NCBI RefSeq assembly: GCF_036013525.1
Contig: NZ_CP107853.1
Coordinates: 1,488,001-1,552,000, forward strand
From: Nonomuraea sp. NBC_00507
GTDB lineage: Bacteria; Actinomycetota; Actinomycetes; Streptosporangiales; Streptosporangiaceae
DNA: 64,000 nucleotides
Reading direction: 5' to 3'
A program made the position numbers and the translations under genes. Under the pieces are notes generated by a model. It searched no databases and was not told the DNA's origin. It saw only the letters and a list, made by a program, of their open reading frames with translations. This document shows positions 8,012-24,327 of this stretch, one piece after another; position 1 is the stretch's first letter; each line of letters begins with the position of its first letter.

Positions 8012-8175
8012 AAGCTCGCGGCTTCTCTGACGTGATCTTCCTATCTCAACAACAAGAAGGATCACCGAGAGCCACGAACTCCCTCGAGCCCCCTGGAGCC
8101 CGGTGCACCCTCAAACCCCGATCAAGTTTCGAAGAGCCATCGTGTGGAGCCCGGCAGGTGTTCTCATAAGGCGAG

Positions 8176-8460: not shown

Positions 8461-8590
8461 CGACCGACTCGCCGCCACGGGCTCCGTGCTTCGGGTGACC
8501 GACCCGCACGACACCTCACCGACAGGGTTGGCCGCGACAAGCCGATCCCGCAGGAGCCATCAATGGCCAGCCTCCGATCACGTCAGCAGC

Positions 8591-8736
8591 GCGACAGGGA
8601 AACGACAGAGCGAACTGCCAGACTTCTGGCCGCGCGGGGCCGCCCTTCTTTGCGAATTCACCCGGGCAGGCGAACTCGTCCGGGCAGCGAGGCCGGACGG
8701 CCCGCGTCTTACAGTTCAACCTGAATCGGAGTTCCG
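8591..8736 (+). promoter_or_regulatory. Upstream region of the lectin gene, duplicated at 29.4 kb
   Basis: This roughly 145-bp region starts with GCGACAG-GAAACGACAG and ends with GAATCGGAGTTCC just before the TTG start. The same beginning and end, with related sequence between them, recur at 29358-29498, where no lectin follows. CGGAG at 8727-8731 is the ribosome site for TTG 8737 (five-base spacing). I could not assign -35 and -10 boxes with certainty. The conservation suggests a regulatory unit or a duplicated gene head. Confidence 0.5.
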
Positions 8737-9501
8737 TTGAAGAACATTGTCATGCTCGCGCTCGGAGCCTTCACCGCCTTGGCACCCGCACCTGTCCTGG
8801 CCTCCGCCGCATCCGCCGCATCCGTACAGGTTACGGTGGACAGCCATCTCCGGCCGGGGGAGACCCTCAAGGCGGGTCAGACCCGGCGCTCGCCCAACGG
8901 GCAGTACCTGCTGGCCATGCAGGCCGACGGCAACCTGGCCTTCTACAACAGCGCCAAGAAGGGGCTCTGGTCCACCGGAACAAGTGGCAACAGGGGTGCC
9001 ACCGCAGTGATGCAATATGACGGCAATCTCGTGGTCGTGAGCGCCGGAAGGAAGGCGTTGTGGTCCACGGGGACGGCGACCGCTCCGGGTGCGTCGCTCA
9101 CCGTCCAGAACGACGGCAATCTGGTCCTCTACAGCAAGGACGGGGACCCGCTGTGGGAACGCAGGGCGAACTTCGCCAGGCTGACCTCAAACCGGATGCT
9201 GGAGCCGGGCGAGTACATACGCTCTGCCAAGCGTCAGTACATCCTGCTCATGCAGAACGACGGCAACCTGGTCATGCAGCACAAGAACACCGCGCTATGG
9301 AGTAGCAAGACCGCTGGCAACGCGGGCGCGTTCGCCGTGATGCAGAACGACGGCAACTTCTGTGTCCATACCCGAGATGAGAAGCCGCTGTGGTGCACGA
9401 AGACCTCCTCCAACCCTGGCGCCTTCCTGCAGATTCAAGACGATGGCAACGCGGTGGTCTACAGCGCAGCGGGGAAGCCGCTATGGTCTTCCAACACGTG
9501 A
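8737..9501 (+). CDS. Secreted bulb-type (GNA-like) D-mannose-binding lectin
   Basis: A 254-residue exported lectin. The TTG start is set by CGGAG five bases upstream and gives a signal peptide (MKNIVMLALGAF to LASAASAAS). The mature protein has two B-lectin domains, about residues 30-140 and 148-254, with six degenerate sugar-binding repeats of the form QxDGNxVxY: MQADGNLAFYN, MQYDGNLVVVS, VQNDGNLVLYS, MQNDGNLVMQH, MQNDGNFCVHT and IQDDGNAVVYS. The third and sixth repeats keep the full QxDGNxVxY; the others vary at the Val or Tyr positions. Two Cys near FCVHTRDEKPLWC may pair. Such lectins bind mannose-rich glycans or act as bacteriocins; no immunity or partner gene is adjacent. Confidence 0.92.
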   Translation: MKNIVMLALGAFTALAPAPVLASAASAASVQVTVDSHLRPGETLKAGQTRRSPNGQYLLAMQADGNLAFYNSAKKGLWSTGTSGNRGATAVMQYDGNLVVVSAGRKALWSTGTATAPGASLTVQNDGNLVLYSKDGDPLWERRANFARLTSNRMLEPGEYIRSAKRQYILLMQNDGNLVMQHKNTALWSSKTAGNAGAFAVMQNDGNFCVHTRDEKPLWCTKTSSNPGAFLQIQDDGNAVVYSAAGKPLWSSNT

Positions 9502-9679
9502 TGTAGCTCAGCACCTGTAGAGCAGGGCCACGGCGAAGTATCGGTAACAGCCTGAGTGTCCGTTTCGTGGAGTGACTGTTCCAGGGGTGTAAGAGGGTCA
9601 AGACTCGTCTGAGGACGAGAACAGGCACGACCTTCGAGATCATGAGGGTCTCGACGCCTAATGATCTCCAGAGAAGACC
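9502..9679. other. Left flank of the ISAs1 element
   Basis: Noncoding. It contains a possible stem (GACTCGTCTGAGGACGAG near 9602-9620) that could be a terminator for the lectin gene or part of the ISAs1 end. The exact ISAs1 inverted repeat could not be fixed. Confidence 0.35.
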
Positions 9680-10356
9680 GTGCCTGTCCCCTCATCATCG
9701 CCGATCAGTGCTGCCCTTGGCCAACTGGCCGAGCGTGGGCTGGTGGCCGCCTCCTCTGCCGACTGCCTCAGCCTGCTGGAGTGCTTCCAGCGACTTCGCG
9801 ACCCCCGTGATCCGCGTGGTGTCCGACACGCACTGGCGTCGTTATTGGCCGGTGCCGCGGCTGCTGTGCTGGCCGGTGCGCGCTCGTTCACCGCGATCGG
9901 TGAATGGATCGCCGATGCCCCCGCCCAGGTGATGGCCGTCCTCGGGGTTCGGCGGGATCCGCTGAGCCGGGCATGGCAGCCGCCGGACGAGTCAACCGTG
10001 CGACGTCTGTTCGAGCAGATCGACACCGACGCCCTGGATCAGGCGGTCTGCTCCTGGCTGGCCGGGCGAGCCGCCACGGCTGGCGCCTTCACCGACGGCA
10101 CCTTCACCGACGGCCCGGCTCGTGCGCGTCGCCGAGCCGTGGCCGTCGACGGCAAGGCACTGCGCGGCACACGCAACCGCGGCGGTGAGCCGGTCCATCT
10201 GCTGGCCGCCTTCGGCCACGGCAGCGGCCTGGTCCTCGCGCAGACCGACGTAGATGGCAAGACCAACGAGATCACCCGCTTCCAGCCCTTGCTGGAGCCT
10301 CTCGACCTGGCCGATCACGTGGTCACCGCCGATGCCTTATGCCGAAGTCGGCATAA

Positions 10357-10392
10357 GGCGTCTTATGAGGACCTGCGGGTTATGCCGACCTC
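10357..10392 (+). repeat. RIT left terminal inverted repeat
   Basis: Begins GGCGTCTTATGAGGACCT and ends GTTATGCCGACCTC. It matches the reverse complement of 13683-13718 at 35 of 36 positions. Its inner 14-bp box GTTATGCCGACCTC (10379-10392) recurs inverted, with small changes, at 10433-10446, so each element end holds a pair of facing boxes about 40 bp apart. Confidence 0.9.
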
Positions 10393-10445
10393 GCTGTCCG
10401 GGGAGGTGCCTGGAACCGTTGTCGTGGACGGCGAGATCGGCATAA

Positions 10446-11435
10446 TCACAACCCTTCCAGGAAGGCCATGACGGTGTCGGAGGGACGGAAGCGGCCGGGA
10501 GCGGTATCCAACGGCGCTGTGCGGGCGAGTGCCTTTTCCTTGAGCGCGAGGTCGGCGTGGATGTAGATCTGGGTGGTGGCGACGCTCTCGTGGCCCAGCC
10601 ATAGGGCGATGACGGTGCTGTCGACGCCAGCCGCGAGCAGCCGCATGGCGGCGGTGTGCCGCAGCACGTGGGGTGAGATCTTCTTCTGGTTCAGGGTCGG
10701 CTGCGTGCGCCCGGCGAGTCCGGCGTACTGGGCCAGTCGACGTTCCACCGCGTCGCGGCTCATCGCGGTGCCATGCCGACTGGGGAAGAGCGGGTCGGCG
10801 GGGGCTTGGGGGCGTTCGGCGAGCCAGGCGCGGAGCACGGTTGTGGTGGTGGAGGTCAGCGGGGTGATGCGTTGTTTTCGTCCCTTGCCGTGGCAGGTGA
10901 CGTGAGCGCCGGTTCCCAGGCGGATGTCGGCTCGGGTGAGCGCGGTGAGCTCGGAGACTCGCAGCCCGGTCTGCAGGGCCAAAACGAGCATGGCGTGATC
11001 ACGGCGTCCGGTCCAGGTGGTGGTGTCTGGTGCGGCGAGCAGCGCGGTGATCTCGGGCTCGGTGAGGTAGGTGACCAGCCGGTGGTCGAAGCGCTTGGGC
11101 GGGATCGCCAGTACTCGCTGGATTACGGCCGCGTGGTCGAGGTGGCGCAGGGCCGCGAAGCGGAACAGGGCGTGGATCGCGGCCAGTCGGGCGTTGCGGG
11201 TCCGGACACCGTTGCCGCGGTCGTGCTCAAGGTGCTCAAGAAACGCGCCGGCCATCGGCGCATCCAGATCGATGATCTCAAGATCGGAGGGCTGCTTGCC
11301 GGTCTGCTCAGCGGCAAAGGCCAGTAAGAGCTTGAGCGCGTCCCGGTAGGCGGCGATGGTGTGCGCGCTGGCGCTGCGCTGCCGGGTCAGGTAATCGGTG
11401 AAGAACGCCTGCACGGTGGATGCCAGAGTACTCAT
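10446..11435 (-). CDS. Tyrosine recombinase, third gene of the RIT element
   Basis: A 329-residue site-specific recombinase that would cut and rejoin DNA through a 3'-phosphotyrosine link. The N-terminal SAM-like arm-binding domain (FFTDYLTRQRSASAHTIAAY) is followed by the catalytic domain with Arg in TGLRVSELTAL, the beta-hairpin Lys region CHGKGRKQRITPL, HVLRH in SPHVLRHTAAMRLLAAG, GH in LWLGHESVATTQIYIHAD and the nucleophile Tyr in IYIH. The ATG at 11435 overlaps the stop of the preceding gene (ATGA), which implies coupled translation; a longer upstream frame exists but would overlap it heavily. The stop lies beside the inner box of the left element end. Confidence 0.9.
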   Translation of the reverse strand: MSTLASTVQAFFTDYLTRQRSASAHTIAAYRDALKLLLAFAAEQTGKQPSDLEIIDLDAPMAGAFLEHLEHDRGNGVRTRNARLAAIHALFRFAALRHLDHAAVIQRVLAIPPKRFDHRLVTYLTEPEITALLAAPDTTTWTGRRDHAMLVLALQTGLRVSELTALTRADIRLGTGAHVTCHGKGRKQRITPLTSTTTTVLRAWLAERPQAPADPLFPSRHGTAMSRDAVERRLAQYAGLAGRTQPTLNQKKISPHVLRHTAAMRLLAAGVDSTVIALWLGHESVATTQIYIHADLALKEKALARTAPLDTAPGRFRPSDTVMAFLEGL

Positions 11436-12370
11436 CGGGGATCTTCCTGGTGCGTCTCGAGGCGGTCGGCCGCGAGAGCGAGCAACTCCGGAGCGGCGGA
11501 CAGATACCAGTAGGTGTGCTTGGGATCGGTATGGCCGAGATAGGTCGACAGGCGCGGCAGCATCGCCGGAACATCGGCCCCGGTCCGATACCACTCCAGC
11601 AGGGTGGTGACCGCGAACGTGTGTCTCAGGTCGTGAATGCGCGGGGTGCATCCCGATGACCGCGACCTCAACCCGGCGCGGATCACCAGCGCGTGGAAGA
11701 TCTCCCAGACCCGGTTGTAACGCAACCGGCAGCCCCGGGTGGACAGCAACAGGGCAGATGATCGCGGGCAGGGTATGACCTGGTCACATAGCCGCAGGTA
11801 GTCCCGCAGCCCAGCGGTAGTCGTCGGGTGAAGCGGCAGCTGCCGGGTCTTCCCGAACTTGGTGTCGCGCACCGACAACACGCCGAGCGTGGCGTCGAAG
11901 TCCTCGCGGTCGAGCCGGATGGCTTCTCCGATGCGCATGCCGGTGACGGCCAGCAGCCGGATCAAGGTCTGATAGGTCGCGGCGGGGAACGGGACGGGCA
12001 ACTGTCCGGCTGCCCGCGCCAAAGCGGCGATCTCGTGATCGGTATAGAGGTAAGGAACGACGTGTCGGTGGCCGCTGGGGATTAACCCGCGGGGCGGTAT
12101 CTGATGTGCTGGATCGATCGCATGCAGGTGGGCCGCGAAACCGCGGACCATCGACAGGCGCATCGCCCACCAGCGCGGGCGCGCTGAGCTCGGCAAGGCC
12201 GCCCAGGCCAGAGCATGGTCGACGGTAACGGTCGTGGCTTGGCTCGCCGCGAGATACTCCAGGAACTGCCGTAGCAGCTTGGCGTGCCGCTCCATCTTGA
12301 ACCCCATGGCCCGGCGGATGGCCAGGTACTCCTCCAGTCGCTGATGCAATCGGCTCACGTGGTCGCTCAC
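11432..12370 (-). CDS. Tyrosine recombinase, middle gene of the RIT element
   Basis: A 312-residue tyrosine recombinase. The N-terminal domain includes LHQRLEEYLAIRRAMGFKME. The catalytic domain has Arg in VTGMRIGEAIRL, the hairpin LSVRDTKFGKTRQLPLH, HDLRH in RIHDLRHTFAVTTL, GH in YLGHTDPKHTYWYLS and Tyr in the same segment. All signature residues are present. It overlaps both neighbours by four bases (ATGA on each side), so the three recombinases are made from one message in a fixed order. In RIT elements the three proteins are thought to act together; their separate roles are not established. Confidence 0.9.
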   Translation of the reverse strand: MSDHVSRLHQRLEEYLAIRRAMGFKMERHAKLLRQFLEYLAASQATTVTVDHALAWAALPSSARPRWWAMRLSMVRGFAAHLHAIDPAHQIPPRGLIPSGHRHVVPYLYTDHEIAALARAAGQLPVPFPAATYQTLIRLLAVTGMRIGEAIRLDREDFDATLGVLSVRDTKFGKTRQLPLHPTTTAGLRDYLRLCDQVIPCPRSSALLLSTRGCRLRYNRVWEIFHALVIRAGLRSRSSGCTPRIHDLRHTFAVTTLLEWYRTGADVPAMLPRLSTYLGHTDPKHTYWYLSAAPELLALAADRLETHQEDPR

Positions 12371-13578
12371 GTGCTCTCCCCGGGCCAGGGACGAGCCAGC
12401 GCACGGAGTCCCTCGTAGTCGACCTTGGCGTATTGCGCGGTGGTGATCGCGTGCTGATGACGCAGTACCTGGCCGATCTCTTCCAGCGACGCCCCGGCAT
12501 GGAGCATGCTGGTCGCCGCGGTGTGACGCAGTCGGTGCGCGAAGATGGTCCCCATGCCGCAGCGGCGGGAAGCGCGAGCCACCGCCTGCGTGACCGCGCC
12601 ACGAGTCAAGGGCCGGTGCGGGGCACGAATCCCGACGAATACCGCCCGGGTTTTCGCCGGAGCCGGGCGACCTGCGCTCAGGTAGGCCACCACCGCCTCT
12701 CCGACATCGACTGGGAGCGGCAGACGGTCGTGCCGGTTTCCCTTGCCGCGCACCACGATCTCGCCCCGCCGCCAGTCGATGTCGTTCAGGCGCAGAGTGG
12801 CCACCTCACCGGCCCGCAGCCCCAACCTGGTCAGCATCAACAACATCGCCCGATCGCGCCGCCCGACCGGGGTGGTCAGGTCGCACGAGGCGAGTAGCCG
12901 AGTGACCTGCTCACTGGTGAGGTACTTGGGAAGCCCGGACAGCTTCCAGTTGGCGGCCGTAGGCACGGCTCCCACCAGTGAGGAGCCAGTCACTCCGCGC
13001 AGATGCAGGAATCGCAGCAGCGATCGAAGCGCCGTAGCCGTGCGTTGCACCGTCGCCGGTGCGACGTTCTGCCCGCAGGCCAGGATGAACGCAGTCACAT
13101 CGACGGCAGTCAGTGTCTCCAGATTGAGGCGCCCGTCGCGGATCCGTCCGGTCAGGAACGGACGGATCAAGTCCGCTTCACGCTGGATGGTGGCTGAGAC
13201 CAGTCCGCGTTCTCGAGCGAGATAGACCGCGTACTCGGCCAGGAACGACTCCACCGGCCCGAGCGCCTGCTCCCGCCCGGGCAACGGCGCGATCCCGATC
13301 TTCTGCAGATACTCCGTCAGCGGTCGCAGCGCCCGTAGTGACAGCCCATCGCGACACCCGCCGGCCCGGCGATCAGCGACGAACTCCTTCAGCAGCGGCG
13401 TACGCACCGCCGAACAGTCCATGCCGCGTTCTCCCAGCCACCGGCTGAGACCCGCCATCAGCCGAAGATGGACGACCCGGACTTCCCGTGAGTAACCGAC
13501 CAGCTCCAACTCGTCGCTGAAGCCTGCCCGGAACGCCGCCAGTGGTCCCAGAACCTGGACCAGTGCTGGATCTCTCAT
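12367..13578 (-). CDS. Tyrosine recombinase, first gene of the RIT element
   Basis: A 403-residue tyrosine recombinase, the longest and first of the trio. ATG 13578 is chosen because GGGGAGGAAC precedes it directly; ATG 13617 would add 13 residues without a better ribosome site. The N-terminal region (residues 1-110) is unlike the other two and probably binds DNA arms. Catalytic residues: Arg255 in RLGLRAGEVATL, Lys in VRGKGNRHDRLPL, His348/Arg351 in HRLRHTAATSML, His374 in LRHQHAITTAQYA and nucleophile Tyr383. The promoter must lie in the 100 bases between this start and the right terminal repeat, where the recombinase boxes also lie, so self-repression is plausible. Confidence 0.9.
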   Translation of the reverse strand: MRDPALVQVLGPLAAFRAGFSDELELVGYSREVRVVHLRLMAGLSRWLGERGMDCSAVRTPLLKEFVADRRAGGCRDGLSLRALRPLTEYLQKIGIAPLPGREQALGPVESFLAEYAVYLARERGLVSATIQREADLIRPFLTGRIRDGRLNLETLTAVDVTAFILACGQNVAPATVQRTATALRSLLRFLHLRGVTGSSLVGAVPTAANWKLSGLPKYLTSEQVTRLLASCDLTTPVGRRDRAMLLMLTRLGLRAGEVATLRLNDIDWRRGEIVVRGKGNRHDRLPLPVDVGEAVVAYLSAGRPAPAKTRAVFVGIRAPHRPLTRGAVTQAVARASRRCGMGTIFAHRLRHTAATSMLHAGASLEEIGQVLRHQHAITTAQYAKVDYEGLRALARPWPGEST

Positions 13579-13629
13579 GTTCCTCCCCTCTCCACGTGTT
13601 AGGAGAGGCAGAAACATGATCGAGAGCCT

Positions 13630-13643
13630 GTTATGCCGACCTC
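13630..13643 (+). repeat. Inner recombinase-type box at the right RIT end
   Basis: GTTATGCCGACCTC faces its inverted copy GAGGTCGGCATAAC at 13683-13696, with 39 bases between. The left end has the same layout. The pairs look like core-type binding sites for one or more of the three recombinases. Confidence 0.7.
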
Positions 13644-13682
13644 ATCGTCTGGATACTGCTGGCCACTCAGGAAAACCAGCAG

Positions 13683-13718
13683 GAGGTCGGCATAACCCGT
13701 AGGTCCTCATAAGACGCC
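13683..13718 (-). repeat. RIT right terminal inverted repeat
   Basis: Reverse complement of 10357-10392 with one mismatch (A for G at position 19). The outer edge directly precedes the ISAs1 codon CTG at 13719. Unlike the left end, no extra hairpin lies outside it. Confidence 0.9.
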
Positions 13719-14195
13719 CTGCACACCCAGCGCGAGCACGCCACTTTCCTCATCGAGCAAAACGCGCGCACTACGTCTTGATGGTCAAGAAGAACCAGCC
13801 CAGCTTGTACGCGCAGGTCAAGCGGTTGTCCTGGAAACAGATCCTCGTACTGCACCGCGAACGCGACCGCGGGCACGGACGTGAGGAACGCCGCACCCTC
13901 AAAGTCGTCACCGTCACCACCGGACTGCTATTCCCTCACGCCGTCCAGGCGATGCAGATCAAACGCCAGGTAAGGGACGGCAGAGTGGGCAGATGGCGGA
14001 CTGTGACCGTCTACGCGATCACCGATCTGCCCGCCTGGCAGGCCCCTCCCGCCGACCTGGCCGCATGGATCCGCGGCCACTGGAACATCGAGAACCGACT
14101 GCATTACGTCCGCGACGTCACGTACGCCGAAGACCACAGCCAGGTCCGTACCGGCAACGCGCCCCGCGCCATGGCCACCCTGCGCATTCTCTGAA

Positions 14196-16140
14196 CTAAA
14201 TATGATCATGATTCGCTTGGCTCTTCGGCGCACTGGCTGGCATGCCGAGGTCGATGGCGGATGATCGGCGATTCAGTTGGGCGAGTTTGTCTTCGGCGCC
14301 GACGAGGCTGATCTTGAGTCCTTCGGCTTCGCCGAGCCAGCCTTCGCGTTCGGCTTCTGCGATGCGGTCGGTGAGATTGTCCCGGATCTCTTCCAGGCGT
14401 GGTCGTTGTCTTGGATCGGGCCAGAGCATCGGGCAGCGGATGCAGGCGTGTTCGTGGATGCAGGGGGTGGCGAACGCGCGGCCGCAGGTGCCGGTGGAGA
14501 CTTTTCGGCGTTCGAAATGGCCGAGGAATTCTTGCCATTCATCGTCAGTGGGGACGCGGTATTCCTCGGTGGGGCGCAGCGCCCGCCGCCGGGCCAGGAA
14601 CGCCAGGTGGGCTTGGATCGCTTCGTCGGGGTAGATCGCCTTGTAGCCGAGGGTGACGTTGATGTCGCGGTGACCGGCGATGATCTGCGCGATGTGCGGG
14701 GGCAGCCCGCTCATGATGGCATCGGTGATGAAGATCCGGCGGAAGTCGTGCGGGGTGTAGTGCAGTGGTTGCCCGTCTGCGGGATCAATCAGGCCGGTGT
14801 GGGCGAGAGCGGCGTTGAGCATGTTGCGGATGGCGCCGTCACAGATGCGGCGGTTTTCGACGCCGTATCTGCGCTGGAACAGCCACGGTGAGGCGGCCAG
14901 CCACACACATTCGCGGCGGTCGTATGCGGGGATGATGGGGATCGCCCCGGTGTCGTCCCGGACGCGGCGGATGATGGTGGACAGCACCTCGGCCAATTCC
15001 GGGCTGACCAGCAGGAGTCGTTCGGTATCGGTCTTGGACGGAGCGATCTGCAGCAACGGCACGAGTTCGCCGGTGGTGGGCAGCCGGTATTGGACCAGGC
15101 TGTGATGGGAGAGTTCGGTCAGCTCCTCGATGCGGACACCGGTGGCCCTGAGGATCTCCACCGCGGCCCATGCCCAGAACGCCAGATCTTCCTCCATGCC
15201 CAGGTCGCGACGTTTCCCGGTGAGTGGATCATCCACCCAGACCTTGTCCGTGACGGGGCGCGCGATGATCGATCGGGTCAGGGTCTGGCCGGCTGCGGTG
15301 AAGGTGTCCCCGGGCCGGGTCCGGCGGGCTGTCTGCAGCAGTGATTCGGCGTTCTTGCGTCGCTCGTCGACGGTGCGCACGAGCACCGGCAGGACAGGAA
15401 GCCGTTCACGGGTGCGGGCGTCCATTCGCGATTTGCGCTGCCGGGCGGCCTTGCGCTGGTTGATCTCCTCTGCGCCGATCGGACACGGAGCAACCCACCT
15501 GCCCCAGCGGCCGGGGTCTTCGATCGCCCATTGGGCCAGATCCAGATAGAAGGCCCGGACCGGCGTCAGGCAAGGGCGATAGCCGATCCGGTCGACGGTG
15601 ACGATCGTCTTGTCGCCCGTGTCCGTGGGGATCGTCTTTTGCCGGGTGCGCAGGCGTTGCTTCCACGCCTGGGCGACCTCGGCGGGCAGGTTCAGACTGT
15701 CGATCCCAGGGTGATGGCGTTCCAGGTCTTTCCAGAACCGGTTCGCCAGGTCGGCCGACAGGGTCCGCAAGGTGCTGTAGTCGATCGCTGGCTGGCGTTC
15801 GCGCAGATAGTCCACGAGCAGGTCGCGGATCGGACGACAGGCCAGGTGGTAACGGTCGATCAGTTCTTCGGGTGTTCGCTGCCCCGCACTGCGCAGTTCC
15901 CGCAATCGGTCGGGAACTCCAGCGCCGAAGACGCCCATCTGGCGAAGCACCCGATAGAAGGCGGTGCCGTCCACCATGGGCCGTTGATGAACGGTCATCT
16001 CAGTGTCCATCAATTCCAGGACGTCACCGATGGTGATGTCGGCAACCGCGCCGCCCTTGGCCGCGATGATGATGGCGGCGCGGTGCAGCACATGGCCCGC
16101 GGCCGTGGAGGAAAGGTGGGGGTCGCGATCGCACAGGTCC
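14196..16140 (-). pseudogene. tnpB: Tn554-type TnpB, C-terminal part (disrupted by insertion)
   Basis: This part encodes about 648 residues of a large tyrosine recombinase. The frame continues upstream from GTG 16091 to the transposon junction at 16140 (RDLCDRDPHLSSTAAGH). It keeps all catalytic residues: Arg in ATGVRIEELTELS, Lys in APSKTDTERLLL, HDFR in YTPHDFRRIFITD, GH in IIAGHRDINVTLGYKAIYP and the nucleophile Tyr in LGYKAIYP. A C-terminal four-Cys cluster (TCGRAFATPCIHEHACIRC) and a coiled coil follow. The first 170 residues lie at 21046-21552. Translation from GTG 16091 is possible, but the protein would lack its N-terminal domain. Confidence 0.88.
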
Positions 16141-16145
16141 CGCAG
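16141..16145 (+). repeat. Target-site duplication, left copy (CGCAG)
   Basis: CGCAG lies directly outside the TGT end of the inner transposon and recurs directly outside its ACA end at 21041-21045. Five-base duplications are the rule for Tn7, Mu-like and Tn5053-type DDE elements. Counting this copy only once restores the tnpB frame. Confidence 0.9.
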
Positions 16146-16185
16146 TGTTCCGCGCCACGCTGCATGAGGACGTAGTGGGGTTGTC

Positions 16186-16212
16186 GGTCGCTGATGGTGT
16201 TGATCAGTGACC
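16186..16212 (+). repeat. Subterminal motif, left transposon end
   Basis: GGTCGCTGATGGTGTTGATC then AGTGACC: a near-perfect palindrome (GGTCgCTGAT / ATCAGtGACC) 40 bases inside the TGT terminus. The right end has the related motif in inverted orientation. Likely transposase binding site. Confidence 0.6.
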
Positions 16213-16586
16213 GAGGGGTGGGTTGGGCGTGTCCGGTTTCGTGTGCGACGCCATCGTGAGCACGACCGCCCGCGTCTGAACTCGTGATCATGGTTTCAGT
16301 CGGGTGGCTTGGGCTTTGGGTTGCTCATGGCGCTCAGGGCCGCATGTCCCCGAGGCGTATTCCAGGGGTGTGCTATGCCCGACGGTGCGAGGTGTGGTGG
16401 ACGGTTGCCGACCGGATCGACCGGGACACGGTTGCCGTTCCCGTCACCGTGGGGGCGTGAGAAATCCTGGCGTTCAACAAGTCGGGATGATCCCATTTCT
16501 ATAGGCTCGCAAGACATGACGAAACCCTCCGGCCGCTCTGCCTTGATGGCCCAACTCGCTGCCACTTGCCGATCGGATTCCTCGGA

Positions 16587-17555
16587 TTGATCGATTTCCG
16601 GTATCACATCGCCTCCATCGTCTCGATCTTCCTTGCGCTGACGGTGGGCATCGTGCTCGGCACCTCACTGCTCCAGGAACCGGCACTCAAGACGACCCAG
16701 GACCTCACGGCACAGCTGGCCACGACGAAGGAGGAACTGCGCACTCAGATCAAAGCGCTGGAGCGCCTCCAAGCGGAGAATGACGCGTTCATCGCCGCCG
16801 CGACGCCAGAGCGAGTAGCCGAGTTGCTCAGGGGTGAGCGGGTCCTACTCATGGAGGCGCCGGATGCGAACCCCGCCGAGCGCGAGGCGATCCTGGACAC
16901 GCTCATACAGGCCGGCGCCGACTACGCCGGCCAGGTCACGCTCAAGGACGCGTACGTTGACCAACAGCGTCTCGACCAGCTCGGCATGCTGGTCAACAGA
17001 CTCATGCCGGTCGACATGCCCACCGATACCGCAGCCACCCCCTATGAGAAGGCTGCCATGCTGCTCGGCGCCGCGCTCATGACCAACGACCCCGCTCAAG
17101 CGGGAACTCTCAACAAGGAAAACCCCACAGTGCTCGACGAGTTCGAGCGGGCTGGACTGCTCAGCATCGACCGGGAGCCGGGCAAACGCGCGACGATCGC
17201 CGTCATGATCCCTCCCGAGGATCCGTACGAAGGCGAGCACGCCGAGGCGCAGGCCAGCGCACTCGTCTCGCTGGCAGCCAGGCTCGACGCAGCGAGCCGA
17301 GGCACCGTACTCGCTGGCGGCAACACCGCCACCCTCCCTGGCGGCCTCATCGCTGCCTTGCGCGACAAGAACGAGACCATCAAGCACATCACTACCGTCG
17401 ACACCGCCGATACCCCGTTGGGGCGTATCACGGTCGTCTACGCCCTGCGAGAGCAGCTGACCGGACGGGCCGGCCATTACGGCACGGGCCCCGGAGCTTC
17501 GTCATTCCCGCTCACGACGCCCTCGAAGGCATCGACCCCATCGCCTCACCGGTAA
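16587..17555 (+). CDS. MctB-like copper transporter (transposon cargo)
   Basis: A 322-residue homologue of the actinobacterial MctB family, which in Mycobacterium is an envelope protein that limits copper accumulation. TTG 16587 is chosen because the family begins (M)IDFRYHxxSI; TTG 16566 would add seven residues. Seen: N-terminal membrane segment (IDFRYHIASIVSIFLALTVG), a coiled coil at about 25-72, a soluble domain and the family ending YALREQLTGRAGHYGTGPGA. A weak GGA lies before the start. The family normally sits in a conserved housekeeping locus with recN and tlyA-type genes; here it is alone between the left transposon end and the transposition genes, so it appears to be captured cargo or a displaced paralogue. 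Copper binding cannot be judged from this sequence. Confidence 0.85.
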   Translation: MIDFRYHIASIVSIFLALTVGIVLGTSLLQEPALKTTQDLTAQLATTKEELRTQIKALERLQAENDAFIAAATPERVAELLRGERVLLMEAPDANPAEREAILDTLIQAGADYAGQVTLKDAYVDQQRLDQLGMLVNRLMPVDMPTDTAATPYEKAAMLLGAALMTNDPAQAGTLNKENPTVLDEFERAGLLSIDREPGKRATIAVMIPPEDPYEGEHAEAQASALVSLAARLDAASRGTVLAGGNTATLPGGLIAALRDKNETIKHITTVDTADTPLGRITVVYALREQLTGRAGHYGTGPGASSFPLTTPSKASTPSPHR

Positions 17556-17690
17556 GGGATTGCACCATCACCGAATCGAGATCAACGATCGGGATGTGAC
17601 ACGAGCATTGAGATCCCGGGTGAAGGCTGCGGGTTGGTGACGGTAGGAGATCAATCGGATCGTCCTGGTTGATCGTCGGGGAGGCCGGCC

Positions 17691-17725
17691 GTCACGGTGA
17701 CCGTGTTCTGAGTGACGTGAGTCAC
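17691..17725 (+). promoter_or_regulatory. GTCAC-type palindromes before the transposition operon
   Basis: Two palindromes, GTCAC-G-GTGAC (17691-17701) and GTGAC-GTGA-GTCAC (17712-17725), lie 70-100 bases before the first transposition gene. They share the GTCAC/GTGAC half-site with the subterminal motifs of the element, so the same protein could bind ends and promoter and repress its own operon. Binding is inferred. Confidence 0.45.
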
Positions 17726-17796
17726 ATGGCAACGGCCCTCCCGGTATCGATTGGCAGCGAGCTCGGAAGGGCCGTGCGTGCGTGCCCGGAGGCACC

Positions 17797-18432
17797 TTGA
17801 TCACGGTAGAGGTCGACGCGGCTGAGGTCGAGCGGCGATTACGAGCAGGTGAGATCACGTGCCCGTCGTGCGCTGGCGTGCTGACCGGGTGGGGCTTCGG
17901 GCGTCGGCGCCGGCTGCGGAGTATGGGCGAGGCGCTGATCGAGATCAGGCCGCGGCGGACGCGATGCGGCTCGTGCGCGCGGACGCACGTGTTGCTGCCG
18001 GTCACGGGGTTGCTGCGGCGAGCTGACGGGGTCGAGGTGATCGGGGCCGCATTGGAGGCGAAGGCCCGTGGCACAGGGCATCGCCGGATCGCCGCCGACC
18101 TGGGCCGTCCGCCGTCGACGGTTCGAGGCTGGCTGCGACGCTTCGCCGCGTCGGCCGGGCGGGTGCGGGCCGCCTTCACCACGGTGCTGGTGCGGGTGGC
18201 GGGCAGCACGCAACTGGTCCTTCCCGCGGCGGCGCCGACCGCGTTCGCCGACGCGGTGGCCGCCGTCGTCGCCTTGTCCATGGCCGTGGGGCGGCGCTTC
18301 GCCAAGGGCTTCTTCGTCAACGCGTTGTCCCCATGGCTGGTGGCCTGCGCGGCGACCGGCGGCCGTCTGCTGGCGCCGCCCGGGCGAGGCGAGTTGATCA
18401 ACACGAGTGCGCTCTTGGGAGCGATGATGTGA
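17797..18432 (+). CDS. Zinc-ribbon/HTH protein of the transposon (DUF6431-like)
   Basis: A 211-residue protein. TTG 17797 follows GGAGG by four bases; GTG 17782 is an alternative. The N-terminal half has a zinc ribbon with CPSC (residues about 22-25) and CGSC (about 59-62) followed by a His. The middle carries a helix-turn-helix (GHRRIAADLGRPPSTVRGWL) and the C-terminus is Ala-rich. It resembles proteins annotated DUF6431 that precede Mu-like transposase and ExeA-type ATPase genes in actinomycetes. It is the first gene of the transposition operon, 55 bases before the transposase. The zinc-binding plus HTH layout recalls TniQ/TnsD target selectors, but there is no clear sequence similarity; it could equally be a regulator. 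Confidence 0.75.
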   Translation: MITVEVDAAEVERRLRAGEITCPSCAGVLTGWGFGRRRRLRSMGEALIEIRPRRTRCGSCARTHVLLPVTGLLRRADGVEVIGAALEAKARGTGHRRIAADLGRPPSTVRGWLRRFAASAGRVRAAFTTVLVRVAGSTQLVLPAAAPTAFADAVAAVVALSMAVGRRFAKGFFVNALSPWLVACAATGGRLLAPPGRGELINTSALLGAMM

Positions 18433-18487
18433 GCGCGGCACGATTCCCGGTGATCTTTGTTGTCGATCATCGAGGAGTGGTGCGAGG

Positions 18488-19918
18488 GTGTCGAAGGCCG
18501 ATGAGGAAGCGCGTCGGCGAGCCGAGCGCGCCCAGAAGGTGGGGCTGTGGCGATATCAGCTCATCCGGGAGGCCGCTGATCCGGAGCTGACGACCAGGCA
18601 GCGGGGCCGGCTGGTGCGGGCGCTGGCCGACAGCACGCGCGAGGGCCCGTTCGGGGAGCCGATGCTGGTGTCGCGGGGGACGATCGATCGGTGGATCCGC
18701 GATTGGCGGGAGGGCGGGTTCGAGGCGCTGGTCCCGCATCCGCGTAACGTGACGCCGCGCACGCCGGAGCAGGTGCTGAACCTGGCGGCGGCGTTGAAGC
18801 GGGAGAAGCCGGAGCGGACCGCGGCGCAGATCGTGCGGATCTTGCGGTCCACCTCGGGCTGGTCGCCGTCGGCGCGGACGCTGATCCGGCACTTCGACCG
18901 GCTCGAGCTCAACACCCGCCCGGACGGCCAGGCCCCGCGCGCGTTCGGCCGGTTCGAGGCCGACCACCCAAATGATCTTTGGACCGGGGATGCGCTACAC
19001 GGCCCCAAAATCGCAGGTCGAAAGACGTTTCTCTTCGCGTTCATCGACGACCACAGCCGCCTGGTCGTCGGTCATCGGTGGGGCTATTTCGAAGACACCG
19101 TCCGCCTGGCCGCCGCGCTTCGCCCGGCGCTCGCGGCGCGCGGCGTCCCGCAGATGATCTACTTCGATAACGGCAGCGCGATGGTCGATGCCGCGGTGAA
19201 GCGAGCCGCGGCCCGCCTCGGCATCAAGATCGCGCATTCGGCGCCGGGCCGGCCGGAAGGCCGGGGGAAGATCGAGCGGTGGTTCGGCGAGGTCAGGCGC
19301 CAGTTCCTGGTCGAGATCGCTGGTGACGGGGAGACGTCGGGGACGAAGGTCACCAGCCTGACCGAGCTGAACCGGCTGTTCACGGCCTGGGTGGAGACCG
19401 CCTATCACCGGCGGATCCACTCCGAGACCGGTCAGACACCCCTGCAGCGCTGGATGGCCGGTTGCGCGGACGCGCCGTTCCCGACCCCGACCCCGGCGGC
19501 GCTGACCGAGGCGTTCAAGTGGAGCGAACGCCGGCAGGTCCGCAAGACCAGCACGGTTCAGCTGTTCTCCAACTTCTACGAGGTCGACGCGTCCTTGATT
19601 GGCCGCACCGTTGAGCTGGTCTTCGACCCGTTTGATCTGAACATGGTGGAGGTCCGCTGGAACGGCAGGCCGCAGGGGATGGCGATCCCGCAGGCCATCA
19701 CCCGCAACGCCCACCCCAAGGCCAAACCCGAGATGCCCGCGGCTCCCGAGCCGGCATCGACCGGCATCGACTACCTGCGGCTGCTGGAGACCAGCCACGA
19801 CCAGCAGGTGGCCACCGGCATCAACTACGCCGCCCTGATCGACCCTGCTCAGCAGGCCTCTGACCAGGGCAGCGGTCACGATGTTGACGAAGAACACCCG
19901 GGCGATGACGCGCAATGA
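18488..19918 (+). CDS. DDE transposase, TnsB/TniA/Mu-like
   Basis: A 476-residue transposase that would cut the element's 3' ends and join them to target DNA. An N-terminal HTH region (MLVSRGTIDRWIRDW, TAAQIVRILRSTSGWSPSART) leads to an rve core with the catalytic triad Asp in DLWTGDALHG, Asp in IYFDNGSAMVD and Glu in RGKIERWFGEVRRQF. A Mu-C-like beta-barrel (VQLFSNFYEVDASLIGRTVE) and a C-terminal tail of about 70 residues rich in acidic and Ala/Pro residues follow; in related systems the tail contacts the ATPase. GTG 18488 is the start, with GGAG about ten bases upstream. It overlaps the ATPase gene by ATGA. All catalytic residues are intact. Confidence 0.92.
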   Translation: MSKADEEARRRAERAQKVGLWRYQLIREAADPELTTRQRGRLVRALADSTREGPFGEPMLVSRGTIDRWIRDWREGGFEALVPHPRNVTPRTPEQVLNLAAALKREKPERTAAQIVRILRSTSGWSPSARTLIRHFDRLELNTRPDGQAPRAFGRFEADHPNDLWTGDALHGPKIAGRKTFLFAFIDDHSRLVVGHRWGYFEDTVRLAAALRPALAARGVPQMIYFDNGSAMVDAAVKRAAARLGIKIAHSAPGRPEGRGKIERWFGEVRRQFLVEIAGDGETSGTKVTSLTELNRLFTAWVETAYHRRIHSETGQTPLQRWMAGCADAPFPTPTPAALTEAFKWSERRQVRKTSTVQLFSNFYEVDASLIGRTVELVFDPFDLNMVEVRWNGRPQGMAIPQAITRNAHPKAKPEMPAAPEPASTGIDYLRLLETSHDQQVATGINYAALIDPAQQASDQGSGHDVDEEHPGDDAQ

Positions 19919-20919
19919 CCGGCCAGGTCGACACCCAGCTCGGCCTCGACCCCGGCAGCGATCCTGCACCTGATCCCGGCCCGCAGCCTCTTGACCGACC
20001 TGCCCCGCAGGCCGGCACTCCGGTCCTGCCGACCCCAGTACCTGACCCCTCCAGCGCCCGCTCTGCCCGGTCTCGGCGGCGAGAAAGTGACGACGACTCT
20101 CCCATGATGGACAAGCTCCAGGGCTACTTCGGCCTATCGAAGACCCCGTTCGGGCGGGGCCTGGCCCCCGCCATGCTGCACCGCCATGCAGCCCACTCCG
20201 AAGCCATCGCCCGCATCGCCTGGTGCGTCGCCGAACGAGCATTGGGCGTGGTCACCGGCGAAGTGGGAGTCGGTAAGACCGCCGCGACCAGGGCCGCGAT
20301 CTTCGGTCTCGACCCGGCCCGGCACCTCGTCATCTACCTCGGCAACCCCGACGTCGGAGTACGCGGCATCCACACGGCCATCGTCACTGCCCTGGGCGGT
20401 GTCCCCAAGAACCAGAAGGCCACCCTGATCCCCCAGGCCAGCGACATGCTGGCGACCGAGCAAGCAGAGCGGGGCCGCACACCCGTGCTCGTGATCGACG
20501 AGGCGCACATGCTGGCCCACGATCAGCTCGAATCGGTGCGTATGTTGACGAACTTCGACATGGACAGTTCCTCTCCGTTCGCCACGCTGCTGATCGGCCA
20601 GCCCACGCTCAAACGCAAGATCAAGCTCGGGGTGCTGGCCGCCCTCGACCAGCGCATCTCCGTCCGCTACCACATGACCGGGATGACGATCGAGGAGACC
20701 GCCGACTACGTCCGGCACCACATGACCCTGGCCGGCCGCTCCGACCCGCTCTTCAGCGACGACGCCATCGCTCTCATCCACGAAACCGCCCGCGGCTATC
20801 CCCGCTCGGTCAACAACCTCGGACGGCTGTCCCTGCTGGCCACCTACGCCGCCGGCAAGACCATTGTCGACGAATCCGCCGCCCGCACCGCCGTCAACGA
20901 ATCCGCCGCGCCAGAGTGA
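19915..20919 (+). CDS. AAA+ ATPase, TnsC/TniB/ExeA-like transposition regulator
   Basis: A 334-residue ATPase that likely marks the target and activates the transposase. After a Pro/Asp-rich, probably disordered N-terminus (residues 1-65) comes YFGLSKTPFGRGL, typical of ExeA-type proteins. Walker A is GEVGVGKTAATR, Walker B is VLVIDEAHML, sensor 1 is in ATLLIGQPTLK and the sensor 2 region in GYPRSVNNLGRLS. ATG 19915 overlaps the transposase stop (ATGA). A downstream Met at about residue 63 is an alternative start. About 120 bases of noncoding DNA separate its stop from the right transposon end. Confidence 0.9.
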   Translation: MTGQVDTQLGLDPGSDPAPDPGPQPLDRPAPQAGTPVLPTPVPDPSSARSARSRRRESDDDSPMMDKLQGYFGLSKTPFGRGLAPAMLHRHAAHSEAIARIAWCVAERALGVVTGEVGVGKTAATRAAIFGLDPARHLVIYLGNPDVGVRGIHTAIVTALGGVPKNQKATLIPQASDMLATEQAERGRTPVLVIDEAHMLAHDQLESVRMLTNFDMDSSSPFATLLIGQPTLKRKIKLGVLAALDQRISVRYHMTGMTIEETADYVRHHMTLAGRSDPLFSDDAIALIHETARGYPRSVNNLGRLSLLATYAAGKTIVDESAARTAVNESAAPE

Positions 20920-21004
20920 GCATCACCACGCCAGCTTGAACACCACGACCCCGCCCGAGCACCCTCGGTGGGGTCGTTCCACATCTGGCCATGCTCAACG
21001 CCGG

Positions 21005-21033
21005 TGTCACTTTCATCAACATCTTGAGTGACC
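21005..21033 (-). repeat. Subterminal motif, right transposon end
   Basis: On the minus strand this reads GGTCACTCAAGATGTTGATG then AAAGTGACA, seven bases inside the TGT terminus. It shares GGTCrCT, TGTTGAT and AGTGAC with the left-end motif, in the same orientation relative to its own end. Confidence 0.6.
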
Positions 21034-21040
21034 GCGCACA

Positions 21041-21045
21041 CGCAG
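21041..21045 (+). repeat. Target-site duplication, right copy (CGCAG)
   Basis: Directly follows the ACA terminus and matches 16141-16145. Confidence 0.9.
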
Positions 21046-21552
21046 CCTCGCCAGCCCTTCGACGTCACCGGCCTGAGCCATGAGCCGAGCGAGGTGACCG
21101 CCGCGCATGATGGCGGCCACGAACCAGGATAGGGAAGGACGCACGATGTCGGCGCAGATCGCCACTGTCAACGCCGAGCCGAGCAACTCGGCGTGCCCTC
21201 GGGCGTGCTGACCCTGCTCGCGCAGCCATTGAGCGGGGATTTGCCGCCAGGAGGCACCGGCGGTATCGGCGCCGCTGGCCAGCCATCGTTCCTGCCAGGT
21301 CTCACCGGGCTGGCCGGCCAGCCAGTCCAGCAAGAGCCCCAGACCCCGGCGTCGCTGTCGTTGGCCGCCTGCGCTGTCCAGCACGAATGGCGGGCCGGTC
21401 ACCAGCAGGAACACCTCGGCACGACCCTGGTGGGTAACCGGCCAGTCCACCGCCGCCGATCGGGCTGGGAACCGGGCATCCACGACCACGCGTCCCAGCG
21501 TCGCGGTCGCGGTGATGGCAGCGGGCGCGTCGATGCCAACGTCAGTGCTCAC
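21046..21552 (-). pseudogene. tnpB: Tn554-type TnpB, N-terminal part (cut by transposon)
   Basis: Starts with GTG 21552, overlapping the tnpA stop (GTGA). It encodes the N-terminal domain of the large recombinase (VDARFPARSAAVDWPV, RRRGLGLLLDWLAGQPGETW, RPSLSWFVAAIMRGGHLARL) up to GLARLR, where the transposon enters. With 14196-16140 and one copy of CGCAG the frame is 2,457 bases, 819 codons including the stop, and reads GLARLRDLCDRDP across the junction. The frame runs on into the transposon to a stop at 21016, adding only a few foreign residues. Confidence 0.85.
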
Positions 21553-22634
21553 GATGCCCCGCCCCCGAACAGGATGTTGAGCGTCTCGGGCCGATAGCCG
21601 GGTGCGGGCGCGGGCCGGATCCGCTGCTCGCTCTGGCGGACCTGCTCGGCGTGGTGGGCCAGCACCCGCCGGATGACATCTTCCTTGCGCGGCGTCAGGT
21701 AGATCTGAGTGGTGCTCAGCTGCGCATGCCCGAGCACGAGCTGGACATCGGTGAGCGGCAGAGCCGGGTCCTCGGCCATCCGGTAGGCCGCCGTGTGCCG
21801 CAGCGAATGCAACGTCGCCGTGGTGCCGGCCTTCTGGTTGACCCGCTCGAACATGCGGTGCACGGCGTGATAGGTCAACGGCCGGATCGGCCGGCGCAAC
21901 GTCCACCACAACGGCTGACGCCGACCCGGGGGAATCAGGTCGGACATCTCCACCTGATAGAGCCGCAGCCAGACGAACGCGTCAGTGGAAGCAGGCAACT
22001 GCTGCAACTCGCGGGTCCCCTTACGGACGACCGTGATCAGTTGACGTCCCGGATCGACCCCCGCCACCGTGGCCGACAACAGCTCCGACGCGCGCGCCCC
22101 GGTGGACACATAGAAGGCGACCAACGCGCGGTCCCGGTGCGATGGCAACGCCGCGAAGATCTCGTTGAACTGCTCATCCGGCACACTGCGCGGGATACGG
22201 CTGGGCACCCGCGGCCGGTAGAGCCCGCTGCGTTCGTTCCGGAACGGCTCCATCGGGTTGTGGTGCGCATTCGCCCGCCCGCCACGCCGCGACCGATGCA
22301 ACGGGAACGGATTCACGATCGGACCCGTGCCCACATCCTGGTGGAAATCGTAGAAGACCCGCAGCACCGTCTCGCTGTGAGCACGCACCGACGGCGCATA
22401 CGCCTCACCCGCCCGGCTTGCCTGCAACCACCGGCTGAAGTCCCGAGCCTCGATACGAGTCGCCCGATCCCAGGCGACCTCGACCGCCCATATGAACCGG
22501 AACCAGCGCAGCAGATCCATGCCATACGAACGGACCGTGGATTCCGACCGGCCCGCCGCCAGCAGATCCCGGAAGAACGCCGTCACCGCCTCCACACCCG
22601 TCCCATCGGGGGCCGACGATCCGGTAAGGCTCAT
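21549..22634 (-). CDS. tnpA: Tn554-type tyrosine recombinase TnpA
   Basis: A 361-residue recombinase, the same length as TnpA of Tn554. The N-terminal SAM-like domain (TAFFRDLLAAGRSESTVRSY) is followed by the catalytic domain: a degenerate Arg box in YVSTGARASELLSATVAG, Lys region VVRKGTRELQQLPA, HxxR in TLHSLRHTAAYRMAED, GH in QLVLGHAQLSTTQIYLTPR and Tyr in IYLTP. It is the first gene of the element and overlaps tnpB, so the two are co-translated. It appears intact, but without a whole TnpB the element is probably immobile. About 160 bases separate its start from the element's right end. Confidence 0.88.
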   Translation of the reverse strand: MSLTGSSAPDGTGVEAVTAFFRDLLAAGRSESTVRSYGMDLLRWFRFIWAVEVAWDRATRIEARDFSRWLQASRAGEAYAPSVRAHSETVLRVFYDFHQDVGTGPIVNPFPLHRSRRGGRANAHHNPMEPFRNERSGLYRPRVPSRIPRSVPDEQFNEIFAALPSHRDRALVAFYVSTGARASELLSATVAGVDPGRQLITVVRKGTRELQQLPASTDAFVWLRLYQVEMSDLIPPGRRQPLWWTLRRPIRPLTYHAVHRMFERVNQKAGTTATLHSLRHTAAYRMAEDPALPLTDVQLVLGHAQLSTTQIYLTPRKEDVIRRVLAHHAEQVRQSEQRIRPAPAPGYRPETLNILFGGGAS

Positions 22635-23109
22635 AACGATCGCCAGTGGCCACCAGCCGACCAGCCCGAGGCACCAGCAACACGGCCAGATCTCTGGACG
22701 GGCCCTCTTCTTCGATCATGGCTGGCCACTCTGACAGGACAAGTCGTGATCTATCCCCTGAACTGCAGAAACTCCACCAGTAGTTCAGTCAATAGGTAAC
22801 CTCGCCATCGGCGCCCTACGCCTGAACGGCGCCGACAACATCGCCCAAGCCATCCGCCACATCTCCCGCGATGCCACCCGCATCCTCACCGTCCTCGACC
22901 TCGCATGATCGACAAGCAAGAGAAAACTCCACTTCGCCGGAGCACTGGGGTCATGGGACCTTCTCCCGTGCTCTCCCAAGCCATCTGTTCGCCTGCCCGA
23001 GCTGCCGCCGCCTCGCTTGATGTGGTGGCAGACGCTCCCGTCCGCGCTGCTTATGATCGGTGTCAGGATGGGAACAGGTGGCGACCCACGAACTCATCGG
23101 AGGCGACGA

Positions 23110-23484
23110 TTGACACCGCAGAGCGCTCCCAACCACCAGCTGTCGATCACTTCGCGGCAGCGCCTCGTGTTGGTTGTCGGGGCCAGCCTGGGTGCTCTCG
23201 TCATGTTCGTGCTCATGTTCTTCGGTCTCATCGAAATCGGCTGGGCCGGGATGTGCGGTGGTAACACCTGTGCTGGGGGATTGCACATCAACTTCCTGCA
23301 GGCGGCACTCGTCCTGCCTCCCATTGCCGCCCTGCTCTTCGCCTATCACTGCTCGTTCTCCCGAACGGGAATCGTCGGCAGACTGCTCGTGGCCCAAGCG
23401 TTGGCCTTCTCGGTGGCCGTGATCGTATGGTTCGTCTCGGCGGGAACTCTCATTTATGTTGAGGACCTCGCCCTCTTCAGATGA
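23110..23484 (+). CDS. Small three-helix membrane protein
   Basis: A 124-residue protein. TTG 23110 is chosen because GGAGG lies six bases upstream. Three membrane segments are visible: about 19-41 (RLVLVVGASLGALVMFVLMF), 55-78 (INFLQAALVLPPIAALLFAY) and 92-114 (LVAQALAFSVAVIVWFVSAG). A loop between the first two has two Cys (MCGGNTCAGG) that may pair outside. No family is recognised. It lies just downstream of the ISAs1 right end and is followed by IS630 debris, so it has no partners. Confidence 0.6.
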   Translation: MTPQSAPNHQLSITSRQRLVLVVGASLGALVMFVLMFFGLIEIGWAGMCGGNTCAGGLHINFLQAALVLPPIAALLFAYHCSFSRTGIVGRLLVAQALAFSVAVIVWFVSAGTLIYVEDLALFR

Positions 23485-23949
23485 CTCCCCGGCCGCCCGG
23501 CTCTGGAGATCCCTTACCGCGTAGGCGACAGGCCTTGATCTGCTCTTGTGCGCCGCTGTTCGTCGAGCCGCAGGGGTGGCCAACGCCACCGCCGGGTGCC
23601 GCTGGTATAGCCTGATGTGGGTCGTCCTCGCCCATCTCGGGAGAGAGCATCGGCGCGTCCTGGGCGCTGGGCTGAAGATGGACCGCCCGCGAACCGGACA
23701 TCACATCCTTTAACGCCACCACGCCGAAGCCCTGACCTGTAGAGGGGGCCGGGCTGGCCGGACTTCGTGTCGTCCCGCGCCCGGGACGCGTGCAACCCGG
23801 CGTGATCGGAGGCCCAGGCGGCGCCTGTTCGCTGAGGGTGAGGTCGGCGCCAGCGACTCGAAGTGCTCCACCTAAGTGGTCGTCTCCGTAAACCTCACGG
23901 GGATTACGCGGCTGGGGCAGTCCGGCAGGCTGATGCTCGCAGTCGATGG
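23485..23949. other. Intergenic, IS-derived debris
   Basis: No gene with a credible start or product. A long minus-strand frame runs through it from the IS630 scar but has no recognisable sequence. Confidence 0.35.
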
Positions 23950-24165
23950 GCTGCTGGGAGTTGCGCTCTTTCTGCTCGTGTCGCTCGATACGGGCCAGTA
24001 GGTCCTCGAGGTCGGCCGGGGTGAATTTCCATCGGAAGGGCCGGGCAGTCTCGTTGTAACGACGCTCGAAGGCGATTAGCCGGTCTTCGACCTGGTCAAG
24101 ACTGGTGAAGTCGTTGGGTGTGACGACCTTGGGCTGCACGATGGACAAGTAGATCTCGTCGGGTA
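23950..24165 (-). pseudogene. IS630-type transposase C-terminal fragment
   Basis: The minus strand encodes EIYLSIVQPKVVTPNDFTSL, DQVEDRLIAFERRYNETARP and KFTPADLEDLLARIERHE, the C-terminal block of IS630-family transposases that includes the last catalytic acid region. The upstream DDE portion is gone and no start codon is associated. Confidence 0.75.
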
Positions 24166-24327
24166 GCCGGAGCGCGTTACCGCGCCCCGGCCCCCTCAGA
24201 AGCGGCCGTGCCCGTTTTCCAGACCTCGGCGGCACCCTGCTCATGCACGGCATGGCCGTGATCAGGCATGGGCGATCAATCGGCCTCCCCGGTCCGGTGC
24301 GTAGCCGTTGATACCGGCGGCGATCGC

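Follow-up and report, generated by a model that had tools for sequence, protein, structure and literature searches.

Within the genome of Nonomuraea sp. NBC_00507 (an actinomycete genus of the Streptosporangiaceae; 12.9 Mb, two contigs), a single transposase gene of the ISAs1 family is interrupted by other mobile elements, one of which is itself interrupted, and the question raised by this locus is whether such a nest arises from random landing or from the choice of targets by the elements. The window, that is, the whole stretch of 64,000 nucleotides that was analyzed (G000:C1:1488001-1552000), contains the ISAs1 gene, a RIT element, a Tn554-like element and an inner TnsB-like transposon. Taken as a whole, the best explanation, to which we assign a probability of roughly 0.7, is that the RIT element is site-specific, with a 6-bp core matching a conserved stretch of its target genes, and did not land at random. 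The parts of the ISAs1 gene and of the RIT element are as follows.

9523..10336, + strand: left part of ISAs1 (coding 9680-10336, ending in ..VVTADA; Pfam DDE_Tnp_1_assoc/DDE_Tnp_1)
10331..10336, + strand: left RIT core GATGCC, on the Asp-Ala codons of ISAs1
10337..13718, - strand: RIT element, antisense to ISAs1, with inverted repeats at 10357-10392 and 13683-13718
10337-10356: 20-bp palindromic spacer of the RIT element
10446..11651, - strand: RIT recombinase 3, RitC type (401 aa as listed open reading frame, start uncertain; Phage_integrase)
11432..12370, - strand: RIT recombinase 2, RitB type (312 aa; Phage_integrase)
12367..13617, - strand: RIT recombinase 1 (416 aa, open frame; Phage_integrase), probably of RitA type from its length and order
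13713-13718: right RIT core GACGCC
13719..14186, + strand: middle part of ISAs1, with a one-base frameshift near 13757-13760
22798..22952, + strand: right part of ISAs1 (coding 22798-22905, stop 22906-22908)

Comparison of the sequences confirmed that the ISAs1 gene is split by the RIT and Tn554-like elements, and the Tn554-like element by the TnsB-like transposon. When the window pieces were aligned separately with the intact ISAs1 homologue P0002 (206 bits on the NCBIfam ISAs1 transposase model, cut-off 70), they proved collinear with it: residues 2-208 correspond to 9680-10336, 209-221 to 13719-13757, 223-364 to 13760-14185 and 365-399 to 22798-22905. The order was the same against P0003-P0005. 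Uninterrupted ISAs1 DNA (L107) aligned to 9523-10336, 13713-14186 and 22798-22947, other relatives broke similarly, and several matches in other genomes started exactly at 22798. The frameshift, absent from the original prediction for this DNA, also disrupts the gene and costs it one residue. In the Tn554-like element, the parts of the long recombinase gene that match window 21046-21567 and 14196-16145 directly adjoin in all seven relatives L115-L121; this comparison covered 23 loci, the rest of which show truncated parts or an alignment that begins further inside. The expectation that the pieces of the interrupted genes would be collinear with intact homologues once rejoined was thus borne out for both genes, the ISAs1 pieces fitting intact proteins end to end.

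The original prediction had further described a four-level nest, in which three unrelated transposition chemistries had used one gene, and this description has to be corrected. Since the RIT and Tn554-like elements are siblings inside ISAs1, the nesting depth is three and their mutual order is not fixed by nesting. Only these two guests, both tyrosine-recombinase elements, lie in the ISAs1 gene, and the DDE transposon entered the Tn554-like element. The nesting supports an order in which ISAs1 would have been in place before both guests, and the Tn554-like element before the inner transposon; this part of the relative dating proposed earlier stands, and the position of the RIT relative to the Tn554-like element and to the inner transposon drops out of it. 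An assembly artefact or a chimera at the junctions is so improbable as to be nearly negligible, given the exact 5-bp duplications, cores and inverted repeats at the junctions and the two-contig assembly. A further argument against an assembly break is that the RIT and the inner transposon each recur elsewhere in the genome, in other surroundings and with exact cores and duplications.

The second RIT copy in the genome (L048) differs by 1 mismatch in 3,362 bp, located in a core, and lies in a different gene. It occupies the same ADA|LHTQ codons of a divergent ISAs1 gene in the opposite orientation, the protein identity between pieces of the two RIT-hit genes being 42-45%. The core, GAYGCC, spans the Asp-Ala codons of the ADALHTQ motif, whose Asp we take to be the second catalytic Asp of ISAs1; at the core residues, Asp is conserved in 118 and Ala in 119 of 120 sequences. 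An uninterrupted core motif was present in 4 of the 11 relatives searched, as GCCGATGCCCTGCACAC in three and GCCGACGCCCTGCACAC in one. The 20-bp palindrome lies 5' of the target in both RIT copies and is not found in those uninterrupted ISAs1 genes; given that it is absent there and turned with the element, it belongs to the RIT. Three adjacent, overlapping tyrosine recombinase genes, all on the minus strand and all matching Phage_integrase, identify the element as a RIT, and its inverted repeats measure 36 bp with one mismatch. The near-identical second copy in another gene of the same genome indicates that the RIT is mobile, and the near-identical second copies of the RIT and of the inner transposon suggest that both moved recently. 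Another RIT, a divergent one (L134, 6594-8613), is found ~1 kb away from the L048 copy of the window element.

It might be supposed instead that mobile elements gather where insertion is harmless and that the ISAs1 gene was hit twice by chance. The frameshift in ISAs1 and the lack of a near-identical region in the same-species genome G363 are as in a variable, decaying region: the empty sites sought in related genomes were not found for the nest locus, and the G363 matches to window 8000-24400 were at most 87% identical, except one of 31 bases. For the RIT, however, such an accident is already weakened by the second copy at the same codon of another ISAs1 gene and by RITs in unrelated hosts at the same profile column (see below), and we judge it rather unlikely. 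The earlier view of the gene as a landing pad is likewise better replaced by target choice, which accounts for the RIT at the same catalytic codon in a second ISAs1 gene and for four of six Tn554-like relatives in transposase genes of insertion sequences (IS).

None of the 24 RIT-relative loci had ISAs1 flanks apart from L048 and L134, two loci that overlap at one target, and targets were therefore searched for more widely. A genome scan with a RitB protein alignment gave 512 confirmed stretches, the best 80 of which were used. Inverted repeats scored at least 24 in 66 of 105 loci (scan loci together with earlier loci), 52 of which had usable flanks after one duplicate was dropped, and a target was recognised in 37 of these 52. 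Together with L168, L257, L199, L200 and eight plasmid loci, this gave 49 RIT loci with a recognised target, belonging to 23 site types. The plasmids formed an out-of-sample set, 12 of 40 matches listed: clear repeats were present in 9 of the 12, and the targets recognised in 8 of these 9 were all mobile-element genes (labels by eye and from record annotation).

Pfam matches of the flank pieces placed the RIT insertion at columns 159-161 of the IstB_IS21 profile in four loci from different hosts, at columns ~244-257 of Transposase_mut in three loci and at columns 93/94 of DDE_5 in two; within the ArdC metallopeptidase profile MPTase-PolyVal, it lies at 52|56 in L267 and at 56 in L278. In rve genes of DUF6431-type transposons, L062 and L200 carry the RIT at the second Asp; in L206 and plasmid L287 it occupies the first Asp, which one L225 flank also fits. 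Both catalytic codons of a single rve gene have been hit in L199 (1600-1880), where the first Asp carries the end of a RIT and the second a short remnant of one, perhaps the scar of an excision or deletion. Other sites, labelled by eye, were YAD|D of reverse transcriptase, Glu of IS3 and HxxR of tyrosine recombinase. The labels for L168, L257, L219 and L185 are without Pfam support, their pieces being short or unmatched. At L062 (4537-8798), the two kinds of element seen in the window nest directly one in the other, the rve transposase gene of a DUF6431-type transposon being interrupted by a RIT.

As a control, the longest open frames that extend to the RIT boundary, picked automatically (94 pieces from 52 loci), were compared with 70 pieces from 42 loci picked in the same way at a distance of 1.5 kb. 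The boundary pieces gave at least 31 matches to nine mobile-element families (Resolvase, Transposase_mut, IstB_IS21, Recombinase, DDE_Tnp_1, rve, RVT_1, DEDD_Tnp_IS110 and Phage_integrase) among the 25 of 40 families listed, where a piece may count twice. The pieces 1.5 kb away gave at least 7 mobile-family matches (Mu-transpos_C_2, IS66, Phage_integrase, Tn3 and ISL3), or at least 9 with phage terminase included, among the 25 of 42 families listed and with the same possible double counting. Mobile-element families were matched more often at the boundary than at this distance.

The palindrome obeys a rule of its own. It lies on exactly one side in each of the 33 loci with a typed target (L225 is outside this set), and its side relative to the target strand is constant in the 8 site types with at least two loci (25 loci), both element orientations occurring. 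Six more agreeing cases came from plasmid loci L287 and L290-L294, and L206 was added as the partner of L287, so that the side is constant within its type in all 32 counted loci, which represent 10 types, each with both orientations. L289 was left out of this count, as were L296 and L297 (single or untyped); L200, with only one end on its contig, agrees with L062 on the spacer side and also stands outside the 32.

Insertion positions, repeats, cores, spacer side, both orientations and parallel sites are observed features, and two of them, spacer side and orientation, suggest a circular RIT intermediate. The three RIT recombinases, in the roles presumed for them, would link the two ends of the element to form a circle, with a junction in the order inverted repeat - core - 20-bp palindrome - reversed core - inverted repeat, and strand exchange would take place in the core. 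Because either core of the circle can pair with the one-directional target core, either orientation would be possible and the palindrome would always fall on the same side of the target; a junction with two inverted cores around the palindrome is thus suggested as the simplest account of the spacer rule. In the nest, ISAs1 would have been entered separately by the RIT and Tn554-like elements, and the latter would later have been split by the TnsB-like transposon.

We then considered what the targeted codons have in common. By known motifs and labels assigned by eye, an active-site codon lies under the core in 8 of 23 site types (23 of 49 loci), and in 6 types (7 loci) the core is near such a codon. 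With these labels, the binomial chance of 8 active-site types in 23 is 3.9e-8 at 2.4% per site, a rough estimate obtained as three catalytic codons x eight overlapping positions per ~1 kb, and 2.8e-6 at the same rate when the 15 unrecognised sites are added as misses. RIT cores would lie on codons that are highly conserved in mobile-element genes, in many cases those of the active site. Since conserved codons are present in every family member, a matching RIT site would be easy to find, much as for inteins and group II introns. A more far-reaching proposal is that RITs are active-site-codon homing elements: the core of each subtype would be matched to a conserved catalytic codon of other mobile-element genes (DDE transposases, reverse transcriptases, the IstB Walker B, the ArdC HExxH and tyrosine recombinases), the element would enter either way from a two-inverted-core circle with the palindrome on a fixed side, and competing elements would be inactivated at an invariant residue. 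We put the odds of this proposal at about even.

Alternatively, RITs could be specific for short cores and their link to active sites a by-product, as fixed cores survive and targets are recognisable in conserved DNA. Such an account shares most of its mechanism with our preferred explanation and differs only in what is selected. It gains from the 9 of 23 site types (19 loci) at positions without a known catalytic role and from the 15 of 52 usable-flank loci without a recognised target, whereas the occurrence of active-site types across unrelated folds (DDE, reverse transcriptase, Walker B, HExxH and tyrosine recombinase, by known motifs) speaks against it, and we regard it as possible but doubtful.

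The last two counts also weigh against the preferred explanation of site-specific RITs, together with several further points. Both the target labels and the catalytic residues are readings by eye of flank translations, set against known motifs, and the locus set was picked by similarity to the window RitB with related elements included, so that the loci are not fully independent. The binomial chance of 8 in 23 is only 1.2e-3 at 10% per site. DUF3489, a possible NUDIX gene and two families matched at the boundary, ADH_zinc_N and NLPC_P60, do not clearly belong to mobile elements. The best-scoring palindrome of L289 would be 5', against 3' in the same-type L176, and the stretch reads as native coding sequence; L225, a RIT of Kibdelosporangium philippinense, has a 20-bp palindrome at both ends, which a simple circle model does not predict. 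Finally, circles and transposition are inferred from sequence rather than observed.

RITs such as those of Cupriavidus metallidurans resemble the window element in their trio of adjacent, overlapping genes for tyrosine recombinases and in their terminal inverted repeats, 34 bp long in PMC10214605 (Table 1) and 36 bp here. In the available parts of the reports concerned, published RITs interrupt IS66 tnpA and radC (PMC2864759) and a Tn6049-like transposase gene (PMC3414803), and RIT target specificity is marked as not formally tested in a 2023 table (PMC10214605). These parts name no target rule for published RITs, in contrast to the catalytic-codon core, one-sided palindrome and two-way insertion described here. 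GInt and SE elements likewise have several cooperating tyrosine recombinases, site-specific insertion and circles, but need four conserved genes instead of the three of RITs, according to the available parts of PMC5385486 and PMC10214605. Neither the active-site rule nor the spacer rule is stated in the available parts of the RIT literature searched, which lies outside the main 2009 and 2013 RIT papers, and the novelty of both rules is provisional. If true, they spell out how RIT elements choose their targets and yield an integration model that can be tested, with short, defined target cores for laboratory tests, and mean that tyrosine-recombinase elements can use an intein-like trick, sitting in codons that cannot vary. 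Mobile-element nests would then not be read as random hits.

Tn554 itself inserts at a radC site. The Tn554-like element of the window has the following parts.

14187..22797, - strand: Tn554-like element, with ends TTCTCTGAACT.. / ..GTAGTTCAGTCAATAGGT, holding the inner transposon
14196..16145, - strand: C-terminal part of the long tyrosine recombinase gene
21046..21552, - strand: N-terminal part of the long tyrosine recombinase gene, with a presumed GTG start
21549..22634, - strand: short tyrosine recombinase gene (361 aa)

The presence of one short and one long tyrosine recombinase places this element among the Tn554-like elements, and its best relatives are ~74% identical. No obvious third gene for TnpC was found among its listed open reading frames, in which no dedicated search was made. 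According to the available part of PMC3414803, the third protein is absent in some actinobacterial Tn554-like elements, whose long recombinase measures 611-828 aa (~818 aa here, the two parts added) and whose short recombinase measures ~350 aa (361 aa here). The element described here differs in being split by another transposon and in its insertion at a conserved Arg|Asn of ISAs1, a pair that is invariant in the 97.5% of aligned homologues covering both. The four relatives in IS transposase genes, all read by eye, were L120 in an ISL3-like gene with the same CTGCGCA, L117 and L121 in IS21 istA, and L124 in IS1380-like genes; no target was read for L115 and L119.

Within the long recombinase gene lies the inner transposon.

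16141-16145 and 21041-21045: 5-bp target duplication CGCAG
16146..21040, + strand: inner TnsB-like transposon (4,895 bp; TGT..ACA ends)
16566..17555, + strand: MctB-family cargo gene (329 aa; PF11382, 1e-85)
17782..18432, + strand: DUF6431 protein, with four invariant Cys (15 sequences) and a helix-turn-helix
18488..19918, + strand: DDE (rve) transposase, TnsB-like
19915..20919, + strand: AAA ATPase of the inner transposon (AAA_22)

The start at 16146 agrees with the original prediction, and the end given there, 21045, takes in one duplication copy. The genome holds one more copy, without a mismatch over 4,895 bp and flanked by a duplication of its own, CTACA. The transposon had earlier been called Tn5053/Tn7-like, and it does share with the Tn7/Tn5053 superfamily a TnsB-like rve transposase (matching TnsB in PDB at 2.1e-8), an AAA ATPase (without a PDB sequence match), TGT..ACA ends and a 5-bp duplication. 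None of its four open reading frames, however, matched TniQ, TnsD or TnsA in Pfam or NCBIfam, and a DUF6431 protein is present instead; given the lack of a TniQ/TnsD match, we call the element TnsB-like and do not file it as Tn7 or Tn5053. In other actinobacteria, too, genes for an rve transposase and an AAA ATPase accompany that for DUF6431. A TniQ-like role for DUF6431 was considered and rejected, as its structural model (pLDDT 81.6) found no PDB fold match at E<=0.001.

Both copies of the inner transposon in this genome (window and L047) lie in tyrosine recombinase genes, and the right flank of L190 reads by eye as a RIT recombinase. We do not claim that the transposon aims at such genes, since a recombinase profile found no recombinase open reading frame in 17 of 21 loci with the triad of genes; of the other four, L195 has a recombinase ~1.7 kb away, and L199 and L200 have RIT recombinases. 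The chromosome also encodes an MctB homologue 50% identical to the cargo, and a further match of 77-82% lies in two pieces at C1:1646281-1647058. The end-only matches to the transposon in G010, G028, G052, G007, G040 and G008 have no element genes beyond an 18-residue DUF6431 match (L065), and no target is readable in them. Four of these, from other Nonomuraea (G010, G028, G052 and G007; L049-L052), retain ~113-120 bp of the left end, 89-93% identical, and little else. Outside the nest, window 8181-8457 resembles part of another transposase gene, which also occurs near ISAs1 copies in L127 and L129.

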